Source: Bacteroidota bacterium (GTDB taxonomy: Bacteria; Bacteroidota; Bacteroidia; NS11-12g; UBA955). Taken from it: DNA of 64,000 nucleotides. Below are positions 10,517-14,689 of the stretch, piece by piece. A program made the translations under genes and the position numbers. Location: assembly GCA_016787485.1 (NCBI GenBank), contig JAEUUL010000009.1, forward strand, positions 1-64,000, read 5' to 3'. Positions within the stretch are counted from its first letter, which is position 1. Every line of letters starts with the position of its first letter. Under the pieces are notes generated by a model. It was not told the origin of the DNA, ran no database searches, and worked only from the letters and a program-made list of their open reading frames with translations.

Positions 10517-11518
10517 ATGATTGAAACCGATATCATCATCATTGGCGCCGGGCCGGTGGGTTTGTTCACCGTTTTTGAAGCCGGCCTGCTGAAGCTGCGC
10601 TGCCACCTCATAGACGTACTTGCCCAGCCGGGCGGACAACTCACCGAAATTTACCCCAAAAAGCCCATTTACGACATACCCGGTTTTCCCGAGGTATTGG
10701 CCGGTGACCTGATTGACAACCTTTTGAAGCAGATAGAACCCTTCAAACCCGGCTTTACCCTGGGTGAAAGGGCAGAACGCATAGAAAAAACAGAAGACGG
10801 CAAATTCATTGTCACCACAGACAAGGGCACGGTTCACACAGCCCCGAACATAGCCATCGCCGGCGGGCTGGGCTGCTTTGAGCCCCGCAAGCCCCCCATC
10901 GGCAACCTGGCAGACTATGAAGACAAAGGGGTGGATTATATCATCAAAGACCCGGAAAAATTCCGGAACCAACGGGTGGTGGTGGCCGGGGGCGGCGACA
11001 GCGCACTGGACTGGGCCATTTTCCTGGCAGATGTGGCCTCGGAGGTTAGCCTGGTGCACCGCCGTACGGAATTCCGCGGGCATCCGGACAGTGTGCAGAA
11101 AGCCATGGACCTGGCTGCCGCCGGAAAAATTCAACTGCTCACCAACGCTGAAGTGATTGGACTATGCGGTGAGGGGCATTTGCAGGCGGTGGAACTGGAG
11201 CAAAACGGGGCGCATACGGTAAAGGAAACGGACTACTTCCTGCCTCTGTTCGGCCTTTCGCCCAAGCTGGGACCCATTGCAGACTGGGGGCTGAACATCA
11301 CCAAAAACGCCATCGATGTAAATACCGTGGACTACAGCACCAATGTGCCCGGCATTTATGCCATCGGCGACATCAACAACTACGAAGGCAAACTGAAACT
11401 GATTCTGTGCGGATTTCACGAGGCCACCCTCATGGTGCAGTCCGCCTTCAAACGCATTTACCCCAATAAAAACCTGGTGCTGAAATACACCACAGTAAAC
11501 GGGGTGCAGGGGTTCTGA
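10517..11518 (+). CDS. Ferredoxin/flavodoxin-NADP+ reductase, thioredoxin-reductase-like type
   Basis: Cytoplasmic FAD enzyme moving electrons between NADPH and ferredoxin or flavodoxin. The 333-residue protein has the FAD-binding IIIIGAGPVGLF at the N-terminus, QPGGQL, the NADPH-binding VVVAGGGDSALDWA near residue 160, and the C-terminal FAD motif YAIGDINNYEGKLKLI. The redox CxxC of thioredoxin reductases is absent (that segment reads GGDSALDW), which places it in the YumC-type FNR family. An 81-bp near-copy of its 3' end occurs at 12976-13056. A [2Fe-2S] ferredoxin gene lies elsewhere in the window (43137). Confidence 0.9.
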   Translation: MIETDIIIIGAGPVGLFTVFEAGLLKLRCHLIDVLAQPGGQLTEIYPKKPIYDIPGFPEVLAGDLIDNLLKQIEPFKPGFTLGERAERIEKTEDGKFIVTTDKGTVHTAPNIAIAGGLGCFEPRKPPIGNLADYEDKGVDYIIKDPEKFRNQRVVVAGGGDSALDWAIFLADVASEVSLVHRRTEFRGHPDSVQKAMDLAAAGKIQLLTNAEVIGLCGEGHLQAVELEQNGAHTVKETDYFLPLFGLSPKLGPIADWGLNITKNAIDVNTVDYSTNVPGIYAIGDINNYEGKLKLILCGFHEATLMVQSAFKRIYPNKNLVLKYTTVNGVQGF

Positions 11519-12093
11519 AGACCCAGGCCAGTAATTATTTTTATCATACGATTAGGAAGGTTGAATAAACTATATTTCTATTAGTGATTATCCACTTTTG
11601 GCTTCCCGACGTTCCACTTCGCTTCAGTCAGGGACAAGTGAACCAAAAGTGGAGCAAAAAGTCAAGACTGCAAGGCTTGAAGTCCGAATGTTTGCAACCC
11701 GTCGAATTTCTGCGGTGATCTCCTCGGTTCCTCGGAGCTACCTTGAAATTTCGCGACGGCTTGCGGCACTTATCAGTTTTCATTCCCTGAGGCCGGGCCG
11801 GCAAATCAGCTTTTCCGGCGGCTTTTAATTACGCTGAACACTCCTAACCCGCTTTGCGTCCCGGTTAGACGGCCCCGCAGCGCGAGGAGGGCAGCGCAGC
11901 CCGCAACGAAGTGGAGGGCGGAAGCCGGCAAGCTGCCCGGGCAGGCCTGTGAAAGGGAAAGCGCCTTGGGCCGTCTGCCTTTTTGGCTCCACCTTTTTTG
12001 GCGAAAAAAGGTGGTAATAACCAGAATTTAAAACCAGACATATTAAGTGTGAGTGTTGACCGGGCATTGCAAGAGTTACACATTTCTCGTGGC
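11519..12093. other. Gene-free stretch of 575 bases after the reductase gene
   Basis: No convincing gene; the open frames here have no family features. The first ~15 bases after the reductase stop resemble those after the fragment copy at 13057. Most of the rest is the structured GC-rich element described separately (11592-12014). Confidence 0.6.
11592..12014. repeat. GC-rich structured non-coding element with nested inverted repeats
   Basis: Visible inverted repeats: CCACTTTTGG (11592-11601) with CCAAAAGTGG (11643-11652); CCGTCGAATTTC (11699-11710) with the complementary arm at 11745-11759, one 3-nt bulge; CTAACC (11844-11849) with GGTTAG (11863-11868); AGACGGCCC (11867-11875) with GGGCCGTCT (11968-11976); and a perfect 11-bp hairpin with GGCG loop at 11989-12014. 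The stretch is GC-richer than its surroundings. It appears inserted in the spacer between the reductase gene and the first cassette, since the second cassette has only 49 bases there. A dispersed MITE/REP-type repeat is the likely nature; only one copy is in this window. Confidence 0.5.
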
Positions 12094-12100
12094 ATTTGCT

Positions 12101-12108
12101 TATGTTTG
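12101..12108 (+). promoter_or_regulatory. -7 box TATGTTTG of cassette copy 1
   Basis: TAnnTTTG match only four bases before the ATG at 12113, predicting a leaderless message. The same box and spacing recur in copy 2. Confidence 0.55.
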
Positions 12109-12112
12109 AGGT

Positions 12113-12412
12113 ATGCTACAGCCGGCCTGTGACATACAGCCTTATGGCGCCGGGGAATTTGACTGCCAGACCCTATGGGTGCTGGATGCAGAGCCCCACT
12201 GTGGCACAGCTCCCTACAGCTATTACTGGAATGTGAGTTATGACGGAATAAATTATACCGTACTTTCCACACAAAAAAGGGTGTTCCCTTATACCATTCC
12301 AAAACCGCCCGGCAACCAGAAGTTTGGTACGGTTTACCTCAAACTGAACATAATGGACAGCCAGGGGAAATGGGTTTACTTGAAAAAAGCTATTTCATTT
12401 TCTTGTATGTGA
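12113..12412 (+). CDS. Small PKD/SprB-like 99-aa protein, cassette copy 1
   Basis: Not assigned to a family. The protein has no signal peptide and an in-frame stop lies just upstream, so the ATG at 12113 is fixed. The core LDAEPHCGTAPYSYYWNVSY resembles the PKD/SprB-type repeats (GxxPYxYxW) seen in secreted Bacteroidota proteins. It ends KKAISFSCM. Against copy 2, codons 24-99 differ by 11 synonymous changes and one amino-acid change, so the reading frame is under constraint. Residues 4-18 differ mostly by replacements. The stop overlaps the next start (TGATG). Confidence 0.65.
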   Translation: MLQPACDIQPYGAGEFDCQTLWVLDAEPHCGTAPYSYYWNVSYDGINYTVLSTQKRVFPYTIPKPPGNQKFGTVYLKLNIMDSQGKWVYLKKAISFSCM

Positions 12413-12924
12413 TGGTTATGAAATTTCATTATCAATACATTATTATATACTCCACAATTTTAAGTTTGTCACCAAGCTGCAGAGACAACAAATTGAAAGA
12501 AGGTGAGTTGATTTTACAAACTAAAAACACAACACTAAAGTTCAACCTTTCTAATACACACATTTCCAATTTTAATGATAAATATATTGACTTTGATTTC
12601 AATTATTATGAAAACAATATACTCAAAGAAAATATTTATTTGTCCGGATTACTTCTTGTGACATCATTTGATACAATCACTTCTGAAACTACAAAACCTG
12701 CCGGATTAAATTGGATTAATTTGAATGATGACATTCTTGAAGGCAGTATACGAGTAGATACTAACAATAGGGATTCCAACCTACTCACCATAGACTATGT
12801 AAACAAGAAGAAAAACAGTATAAGGGGGCATTTCAAGGCCATGATGAAGGTAACCGAAGGCACCCGCTGGGGAGATACCGGTACCCGGTTTATGGTGTAT
12901 GGGAATTTCAATGCGCACCGGTAA
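12412..12924 (+). CDS. Putative lipoprotein, cassette copy 1
   Basis: A 170-residue protein of unknown function. The ATG at 12412 overlaps the upstream stop; an ATG at 12418 is the alternative. A hydrophobic N-terminus (YIIIYSTILSLSPSC) ends in a poor lipobox. The middle is AT-rich and Asn/Ile-rich. The last 50 residues (VNKKKNSIRGHFKAMMKV, MVYGNFNAHR) are nearly identical to copy 2 and have the strand-turn-strand look of the C-termini of DUF6252-like Bacteroidota lipoproteins (weak resemblance). Middle parts of the two copies still align in places (KPAGLNWINL against NTLILDWYNS), so they are true paralogues with conserved ends. Confidence 0.65.
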   Translation: MVMKFHYQYIIIYSTILSLSPSCRDNKLKEGELILQTKNTTLKFNLSNTHISNFNDKYIDFDFNYYENNILKENIYLSGLLLVTSFDTITSETTKPAGLNWINLNDDILEGSIRVDTNNRDSNLLTIDYVNKKKNSIRGHFKAMMKVTEGTRWGDTGTRFMVYGNFNAHR

Positions 12925-12975
12925 GGTATAAGATTCGAATAAACTTTGGCACGTTGAATTGAATCACAGGATATT

Positions 12976-13056
12976 CAGTCCGCCTTCAAACGTATTTACC
13001 CCAATAAAAACCTGGTGCTGAAATACACCACTGTGAACGGGGTGCAGGGGTTCTGA
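12976..13056 (+). pseudogene. Copy of the 3' end of the ferredoxin-NADP reductase gene
   Basis: These 81 bases match 11438-11518, the last 27 codons of the reductase including the stop, with three differences by eye. All three are synonymous (CGC/CGT, ACA/ACT, GTA/GTG). Homology begins sharply at a CAG codon; the 51 bases before it (12925-12975) do not match the reductase. The fragment has no start codon and cannot make the enzyme. It marks the left junction of the second cassette. Confidence 0.88.
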
Positions 13057-13093
13057 TAACCCAAAACCTATTTGCAATTCACGAATATTTGCT

Positions 13094-13101
13094 TATGTTT
13101 G
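13094..13101 (+). promoter_or_regulatory. -7 box TATGTTTG of cassette copy 2
   Basis: Same box and four-base spacing to the ATG (13106) as in copy 1. Confidence 0.55.
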
Positions 13102-13105
13102 AGGT

Positions 13106-13405
13106 ATGCTACAGCAGGCCTGTGACATACAATCGCATGGCGATGGGGAATTTAACTACCAGACCCTATGGGTGCTGGATGCAGAGCCCCACTGTGGCAC
13201 AGCTCCCTACAGCTATTACTGGAATGTGAGCTATGACGGAATAAACTATACCGTACTTTCCACACAAAAAAGAGTGTTCCCTTATACCATTCCAAAACCG
13301 CCCGGCAACCAGAAGTTTGGCACAGTGTACCTCAAACTGAACATAGTGGACAGCCAGGGAAAATGGGTGTACCTGAAAAAAGCAATTTCCTTTTCTTGTA
13401 TGTAA
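13106..13405 (+). CDS. Small PKD/SprB-like 99-aa protein, cassette copy 2
   Basis: Paralogue of the protein at 12113. From residue 24 onward only one residue differs (Val for Met in the segment LNIVDSQGKW), while the first 18 residues carry several replacements (QSHGDGEFNYQ against QPYGAGEFDCQ). It has no signal peptide, so either it acts in the cytoplasm or it is the remnant of a larger exported protein. The stop overlaps the next start (TAATG), as in copy 1. Confidence 0.65.
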   Translation: MLQQACDIQSHGDGEFNYQTLWVLDAEPHCGTAPYSYYWNVSYDGINYTVLSTQKRVFPYTIPKPPGNQKFGTVYLKLNIVDSQGKWVYLKKAISFSCM

Positions 13406-13920
13406 TGGATAGGATATTTTATATAATATTTCTAATTTACACTTTATTTGTCCTAGGTTGCAATAAAAAGATTCCGGATAAGGGCGATTTGGAAATCACA
13501 TTCAATACCAGCAGGAATTTGAGTTTCAGACTAGGCAGAAATGTGCAATCTGCGAATTCAGGAAATTTGCGTGATTTGGTTTTTTATTCATACAATAACA
13601 ATAGCACAACGGATTACATTCTGGAAACTTTTTATATTCTAAATGCAAATTGCAGTTCCAGTGGATCCTATCTTATTACAGGGAAAACCAATACGTTGAT
13701 TCTGGACTGGTATAACTCTGAAGCAGATGTTCAGAAAGGACATATCCAATTGGATTCAAATTTTACTGATTCCAACCTACTCACCATAGACTATGTAAAC
13801 AAGAAGAAAAACAGTGTGCGGGGCCATTTCAAGGCCATGATGAAGGTAACCGAAGGCAACCGCTGGGGAGATACCGGCACCCGGTTTATGGTGTATGGGA
13901 ATTTCAATATGCACCGGTAA
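13405..13920 (+). CDS. Putative lipoprotein, cassette copy 2
   Basis: A 171-residue paralogue of the protein at 12412. It has a better lipoprotein signal (IIFLIYTLFVLGC), then a diverged middle rich in Asn and Ser (FYSYNNNSTTDYILETFY), then the shared 50-residue C-terminus (VNKKKNSVRGHFKAMMKV). The recognisable lipobox suggests both copies are, or were, outer-envelope lipoproteins. The function is unknown. Confidence 0.7.
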   Translation: MDRIFYIIFLIYTLFVLGCNKKIPDKGDLEITFNTSRNLSFRLGRNVQSANSGNLRDLVFYSYNNNSTTDYILETFYILNANCSSSGSYLITGKTNTLILDWYNSEADVQKGHIQLDSNFTDSNLLTIDYVNKKKNSVRGHFKAMMKVTEGNRWGDTGTRFMVYGNFNMHR

Positions 13921-14077
13921 GTTCCATTGCCCAATACCACCAACTCTACCTCAGGTTCTATATCATTTGTCCCCGAAGCCCTGTCTGTCATTTCCGCGTC
14001 AGTTCTGTTCAGGATTTCCCTGAAAAAGTTGGAAATACGAGTCCAATTGTGTAAACTTGTATTGCGGTATGTATGGA

Positions 14078-14689
14078 ATGCCACTATATCGGTGTGTTTC
14101 AGTTTACAGCACCCTTTGCCTGGGTCTGCTGCTGGGCATGGCCGGTTGCCGCAAATCCACCCCAGCCAACACACCTGCCCCGGCCCCTGTAATAAGCACC
14201 TCCTGGTTCAGCGCCGGCTCTGAGGGCTGCACACAGTGGAAAGACGAATACACCGGATTCAGCCATGTGCTCTACATGGAAAAATCTGCGCCAGAAATTA
14301 CCGAAGACGTTCTTGCCAACTCCGTGATACTGGTCTATGCCAAACTGGGTGGGTACAACCCGCAGGTATGGCCCGCAGAACAGGTGGGTCTACTTCACAT
14401 GGAACTGGAATACAACTATGGCAGCCAGAAAGCCCGCGACCGCTGGGGCAGTTCGGCTCAGGCCAAGGTGCTGCGCATTCAGTTCAGCAACTCCCTGGAC
14501 CTGTTTACCGCCAAAGACCTGAGTCCCGACCATATTTTCCGTTACGTAATTATTCCCCGCAACGGACAACGGGCAACGGGCAATGCGGTTGAAATCAAAA
14601 ACGGCGGTATCATGGCTCAATACAGCGAAAGCGACCTGCGCACCATGAGTTACAGCCAACTCTGCAAACTCACCGGATTGCGACCCTGA
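14078..14689 (+). CDS. Lipoprotein of unknown function
   Basis: The 203-residue protein from the ATG at 14078 begins with a lipoprotein signal ([14 protein letters not shown]). In-frame ATGs at 14057 and 14069 are alternatives. A Pro/Thr/Ala-rich linker follows the cysteine, then a domain of about 150 residues with no family I recognise ([36 protein letters not shown]). It sits between the mosaic cassettes and mtgA. The C-terminal Ser-Tyr-Leu-Cys pattern is common in small Bacteroidota lipoproteins, but no function can be inferred. Confidence 0.68.

Follow-up and report, generated by a model that had tools for sequence, protein, structure and literature searches.

Tandem putative lipoprotein cassettes with near-identical ends, a diverged core and a reductase gene relic in a Bacteroidota genome

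Two cassettes, each consisting of a promoter motif, a 99-aa gene and an overlapping, probable lipoprotein gene, were found in tandem (12094-12925 and 13087-13921) by comparison against itself of a 64-kb window (the whole stretch of Bacteroidota DNA that was analysed, 64,000 nucleotides), and the core of the cassette and its ends have different histories. We favour, with a probability of roughly 0.6, additive recombinational capture of a divergent allele, the core of which had previously been swapped, and which came to be stacked beside the resident copy. The features of the locus are as follows (window coordinates).

10517..11518, + strand: intact thioredoxin-reductase-like FAD oxidoreductase gene (named fnr here), the anchor; TIGR01292-like match, below the model cut-off
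11438..11525, + strand: fnr 3' end from which the duplicated anchor derives; 94% identical to 12976-13063
11591..12016, no strand: dispersed repeat separating fnr from cassette 1 and carrying a hairpin at either end; borders from a 7-copy alignment
12094..12412, + strand: 5' conserved block, copy 1; -7 motif TAnnTTTG and 99-aa gene; 93% identical to copy 2
12113..12412, + strand: 99-aa gene, copy 1; predicted to be a PKD/SprB-like (Ig-like) domain standing alone; signal peptide not evident
12412..12924, + strand: putative lipoprotein A; signal-peptide-like N-terminus, Cys at LSPSC
12418..12771, + strand: core of lipoprotein A; GC 28%
12772..12925, + strand: 3' conserved block, copy 1, encoding the last 50 aa of lipoprotein A; 94.8% identical to copy 2
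12926..12975, no strand: unique junction from cassette 1 to the fnr relic; 50 nt with no other match in the window or genome
12976..13063, + strand: relic of the fnr 3' end, made up of 26 codons, the stop and 7 nt; the duplication footprint
13070..13101, + strand: promoter-like TTTG-N20-TATGTTTG, copy 2 (sequence and motif scan)
13087..13405, + strand: 5' conserved block, copy 2 (window self-comparison)
13106..13405, + strand: 99-aa gene, copy 2; 93% amino-acid identity to copy 1
13405..13920, + strand: putative lipoprotein B; TAATG overlap, Cys at FVLGC
13408..13767, + strand: core of lipoprotein B; GC 33%
13768..13921, + strand: 3' conserved block, copy 2 (window self-comparison)
14069..14689, + strand: unrelated lipoprotein with a 34% identical homologue in L026, where it lies directly after fnr, without a cassette, in sister genus g12 (G011)

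Layout of the tandem cassettes

In self-BLASTN of the window, 12094-12429 matched 13087-13422 at 92.3% identity, and 12772-12925 matched 13768-13921 at 94.8% (8 mismatches in 154 nt). Altogether three homologous pairs were located at the cassettes, and elsewhere in the 64 kb one other short repeat pair was seen. The ends had a GC content of 47-49%, compared to 47% for the contig and to 28% and 33% for cores A and B, respectively, and mismatch density differed strongly between ends and core (Fisher p ~1e-60). The core, about 355 bases per copy, could be aligned at the protein level only (28 of 116 residues identical (24%), with 42% codon-aligned nucleotide identity), but the two core proteins are homologous, as none of 2000 shuffles matched their alignment score, whether the signal peptide was included or removed. 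A first-pass annotation of this DNA had described tandem copies with nearly identical ends, eight mismatches in the 3' block and an AT-rich core in which scattered residues align, and all of this was borne out. Its further claim of an abrupt change in divergence at both borders held for the 3' border, where about half of the sites differ up to 12771 and are followed by 48 identical bases, and less well for the 5' border, which is softer, mismatches growing denser across the final ~45 nt of the 99-aa gene. Given this soft border and a fast-evolving N-terminus, the 5' block may itself be composite.

Each 99-aa gene overlaps the start of the following lipoprotein gene by one base at its stop codon (TGATG at 12412 and TAATG at 13405), and the lipoprotein is probably co-translated with the small Ig-like protein. 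In both copies TATGTTTG, which is the TAnnTTTG -7 motif of the phylum, is situated 4 nt upstream of the ATG, and the motif scan also placed TAnnTTTG upstream of other genes in the window. The leaderless promoter proposed earlier is thus plausible as far as the -7 motif is concerned, but a -33-like TTTG at the proper spacing precedes copy 2 only; copy 1 (12068-12106) keeps the TAnnTTTG half alone and, without a -33-like motif, may be weakly expressed or silent.

No third copy of the cassette was present in this genome, and a search of the genome and its relatives gave two core variants, both in this genome. Self-comparison of the window revealed no inverted repeats at the core borders. Programmed antigenic variation or switching was considered and rejected, there being only two copies, both with the -7 motif, no recombinase and no border repeats.

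The segment between fnr and cassette 1 holds a dispersed repeat of ~430 nt (11591-12016), to which the first-pass annotation made no reference. It has 21 matches in this genome (73-100% identity), its hairpins being CCACTTTTGG...CCAAAAGTGG and CCACCTTTTTTGGCGAAAAAAGGTGG, and no coding function was seen in it. In sister genus g12 (L026:1000-1495), degenerate 'GCTATCCTTGCTAACTGCCATCCTTGC'-type repeats occur between the reductase and the lipoprotein.

Synonymous divergence of ends and core

Synonymous divergence (dS) was 0.27 for the 99-aa gene, 0.12 for the 3' block and 0.18 for the fnr relic, and was saturated in the core. Correspondingly, where the residues of the two copies were identical, the same codon was used in 80 of 92 cases (87%) at the 5' end and 44 of 47 (94%) at the 3' end, relative to 11 of 28 (39%) in the core. 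As synonymous sites are unsaturated in the ends and saturated in the core, constraint on the encoded protein cannot explain the likeness of the ends, and the codon sharing together with the dS contrast leaves recombination as what separated the core from the ends. The pattern is that of mosaic alleles: at synonymous sites the ends have been shared recently and the core is of ancient divergence. A combination of strong constraint on the ends and fast positive selection on the core, with no recombination, might be suggested by the purifying selection seen on the 99-aa gene, but it is contradicted by the synonymous contrast (dS 0.12-0.27 in the ends) and by an unconstrained relic as alike as the ends, and we give it practically no weight.

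For codons 19-99 of the 99-aa gene, 12 codons differed between the copies, 11 synonymously and 1 nonsynonymously (dN 0.005, dS 0.25), while codons 1-18 were more diverged (6 nonsynonymous, 1 synonymous). Change in codons 19-99 being almost exclusively synonymous, the 99-aa product is a real, constrained protein, and the gene is, on this codon evidence, under purifying selection. Our best guess is that it is an Ig-like domain with no evident signal peptide. The Pfam SprB model matched it at E 0.028 and 14.5 bits, which is below the gathering score (cut-off 28), and one domain of a T9SS-type metalloprotease in L018, a protein that ends in a type IX sorting tail, showed 37% identity to it over 51 aa. 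The second gene of each cassette probably encodes a lipoprotein, as called by eye, the lipobox FVLGC of B being good and LSPSC of A weaker. Its N-terminal two thirds are variable and its last 50 residues fixed, and it is probably a variable exported protein. Structure models of the 99-aa protein and the lipoprotein had pLDDT values of 45 and 35, respectively, too poor for structure searching.

Searches of 38 relatives, 108 genomes of the order, 395 genomes of the phylum and a larger genome collection (two scans) gave no convincing relative of the cassette. For the lipoprotein there was likewise no relative in these sets, nor in two viral scans, phages (by tblastn), PDB, Pfam, NCBIfam or PADLOC, and the 99-aa protein matched PKD/SprB-like stretches only, in the same genome sets, the viral scans, plasmids (by tblastn), PDB, Pfam, NCBIfam and PADLOC. 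One match in G104 (E 0.001) was dismissed as chance, as it crosses two stop codons and covers two unrelated parts. Rfam reported no RNA family in the window.

The reductase relic and the origin of the tandem

Upstream of cassette 2 lies an 88-nt copy of the 3' end of fnr, which had also gone without mention in the first-pass annotation. It differs from the resident gene at 5 of 88 positions, and the three coding differences are all synonymous, a pattern of p ~0.026 were the fragment unconstrained, the counts being small. These three differences fall at sites that are also variable among the reductase genes of other genera; the relic is nearer to the resident fnr than is the gene of any relative, and its dS is on a par with that of the cassette ends. 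Judged from its sequence, the relic is a useless, non-functional fragment that marks the duplication. That the coding differences of such a fragment should all be synonymous argues that it diverged where the reductase was still intact, in another lineage, and was joined later. The simplest reading of these sequences would be that the relic and its cassette diverged in another lineage, both lineages having working single copies, and were then added to the resident locus in one genome.

Best matches to fnr, ~70-82% identical, are found in most genomes of the family, typically adjoining mtgA, and where the locus could be read, mtgA and then efp followed directly after the reductase in most genomes. 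In sister genus g12 (G011) the order was fnr, the homologue of the lipoprotein at 14069, and mtgA, with no cassette. Since fnr and mtgA are neighbours in most family members and G011 is free of the cassette, the locus was gained in this genus, to which the cassette appears to be restricted as far as sampled. The absence from sister genera leaves little time for cores to diverge in place, and as the cores (24% amino-acid identity) differ more than fnr does between genera (~70-82%), it is implausible, as a matter of rate, that they diverged in place once the locus had been gained.

By such a capture, the tandem would have arisen in two steps. The lipoprotein core would have been exchanged in the population by homologous recombination within conserved flanks, as the abrupt change in synonymous divergence suggests, and a fragment comprising the fnr 3' end and a cassette would then have been added, from a sister lineage, beside the resident copy. 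The join, with homology on one side and illegitimate on the other, would account for the fnr relic and the 50-nt junction; relic and junction are there to be read in the DNA, and the direction of the addition and its donor are what we infer from them. Allele exchange is suggested here by a single cassette pair from the one genome carrying the cassette. The dispersed repeat between fnr and copy 1 would be an insertion. Keeping two lipoprotein variants might widen the range of surface interactions (immunity, receptor or adhesion).

Several other histories could produce parts of this picture. A recent duplication within the genome, after which one core was replaced by conversion with a transferred third divergent allele, would give the same mosaic and relic, and the AT-richness of both cores would allow a foreign origin; redundant copies should, however, show relaxed selection, whereas codons 19-99 and the useless relic differ almost only synonymously, so that we regard this course of events as rather unlikely. 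Gene conversion homogenising the ends of an old tandem duplication while the cores diverged, one of two explanations offered in the first-pass annotation, would likewise yield tandem copies with similar ends and a diverged core. It is very improbable, because the functionless fnr relic, which lies outside the cassette, has the same low divergence, and because sister genera are without the locus although core divergence exceeds that between genera. The other explanation offered there, exchange of a variable core while the flanks stay fixed, gains support from the difference in synonymous divergence between ends and core.

An artefact is also conceivable, in which the assembler put together, head to tail, alleles that belong to two co-occurring populations. 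The genome (41 contigs, 95.8% complete) may have been assembled from a metagenome, and synonymous-only differences at several loci would fit orthologues of two populations. Estimated contamination is nonetheless low (0.29%), there are no Ns, the 50-nt junction is unique, no word is shared at the join, and the genes inserted between anchors vary by locus; a chimera is accordingly regarded as quite unlikely, and even a chimeric join would leave the two-allele mosaic standing.

Similar footprints and comparison with known systems

As a control for the frequency of such a footprint, nearby direct repeats were scanned over ~1.1 Mb of the 3.4 Mb genome. Three further loci showed a duplicated anchor with mostly synonymous differences and extra genes beside the copies, and the scan otherwise gave repeats inside adhesin genes, copies of the dispersed repeat, and short or noncoding repeats. 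At C34:95.7-96.6 kb (G000:C34:95096-96600; L074:15096-16598) the gene for a 52-aa membrane protein, of which every relative with a match has a single copy, is doubled, with 12 synonymous codon differences and 1 nonsynonymous. Behind each copy stands an exported orphan gene, a different one in each case, that the loci of the relatives do not have; these two passengers are only marginally similar to each other (16 of 1000 shuffles). At C37:30.1-32.0 kb (G000:C37:30148-31960; L099:10148-11960) a truncated and a full yegP (DUF1508), 95% identical (6 synonymous and 2 nonsynonymous differences), enclose an orphan lipoprotein gene on the opposite strand; the occurrence of yegP in the family is sporadic. 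At C34:205.6-207.0 kb, within a polymorphic toxin locus (L120:508-7897; G000:C34:200508-207897), the pre-toxin segment of a 1894-aa protein recurs (94%) and heads an orphan TNT toxin module, followed by a 128-aa gene that is probably its immunity gene. This locus is laid out as an orphan toxin module and is a positive control for the footprint. What the recurring loci have in common is their layout, and their histories are not identical.

Tandem modules with a repeated conserved anchor and divergent cargo are likewise a feature of polymorphic toxin, Rhs and CDI orphan modules and of T6SS immunity arrays, and the model published for additive insertion in the T6SS and Rhs cases is homology-facilitated illegitimate recombination (PMC5361080). 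The TNT module of this same genome shares the layout of those toxin modules. The cassettes depart from them in three respects: the anchor is the 3' end of a housekeeping reductase, no toxin or immunity domain was detected, and the variable part sits inside a lipoprotein with a fixed C-terminus. The link to toxin/immunity loci raised in the first-pass annotation received no direct support, as neither gene had a Pfam, NCBIfam or PADLOC match to a toxin or immunity family, which is weak evidence, the families being orphan. A repeated anchor ahead of divergent modules does exist here, in the form of the fnr relic, though that anchor belongs to no secreted toxin.

Allelic exchange is known from Porphyromonas gingivalis surface proteins, the RagA/RagB lipoprotein pair among them (PMC5266723), and is the precedent for the earlier core exchange proposed here. 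These, too, are Bacteroidota surface proteins that exist in divergent allelic forms and owe their diversity to recombination and transfer. RagAB is, unlike the cassette, a large transporter pair, and the likeness drawn here is one of pattern. In the archaeal VARTIG modules of Thermococcales, which are hypervariable through recombination (PMC8416519), a gene for an Ig-like protein is followed by variable genes, as in the cassette; there the Ig protein is large and hypervariable, whereas here the 99-aa Ig-like protein is conserved and the downstream lipoprotein is variable. Tandem duplications also arise in transformation merodiploids, from uptake of DNA that is partly repeated in the chromosome (PMC3784515), but these involve 100-900 kb of the recipient's own DNA and not, as here, a divergent allele of ~1 kb.

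The mechanism that we favour is an ordinary one, a known diversifier of surface and toxin genes, and the gene family is previously undescribed. It is unlikely that the locus represents both a genome-wide, toxin-independent capture of orphan modules, with divergent exported orphan genes stacked beside short duplicated housekeeping anchors, and, in the 99-aa protein and core-variable lipoprotein, a new recognition or immunity pair. With the relic, what was a vague diverged duplicate becomes a dated event, by which one genome would come to have two divergent alleles of an exported protein, and the footprint of the join carries almost only synonymous differences. Its occurrence at three other loci in the part of the genome sampled suggests a simple scan, for a duplicated anchor, synonymous-biased differences and an extra orphan gene, which could reveal surface, toxin or immunity genes of recent capture that have no homology to known ones.
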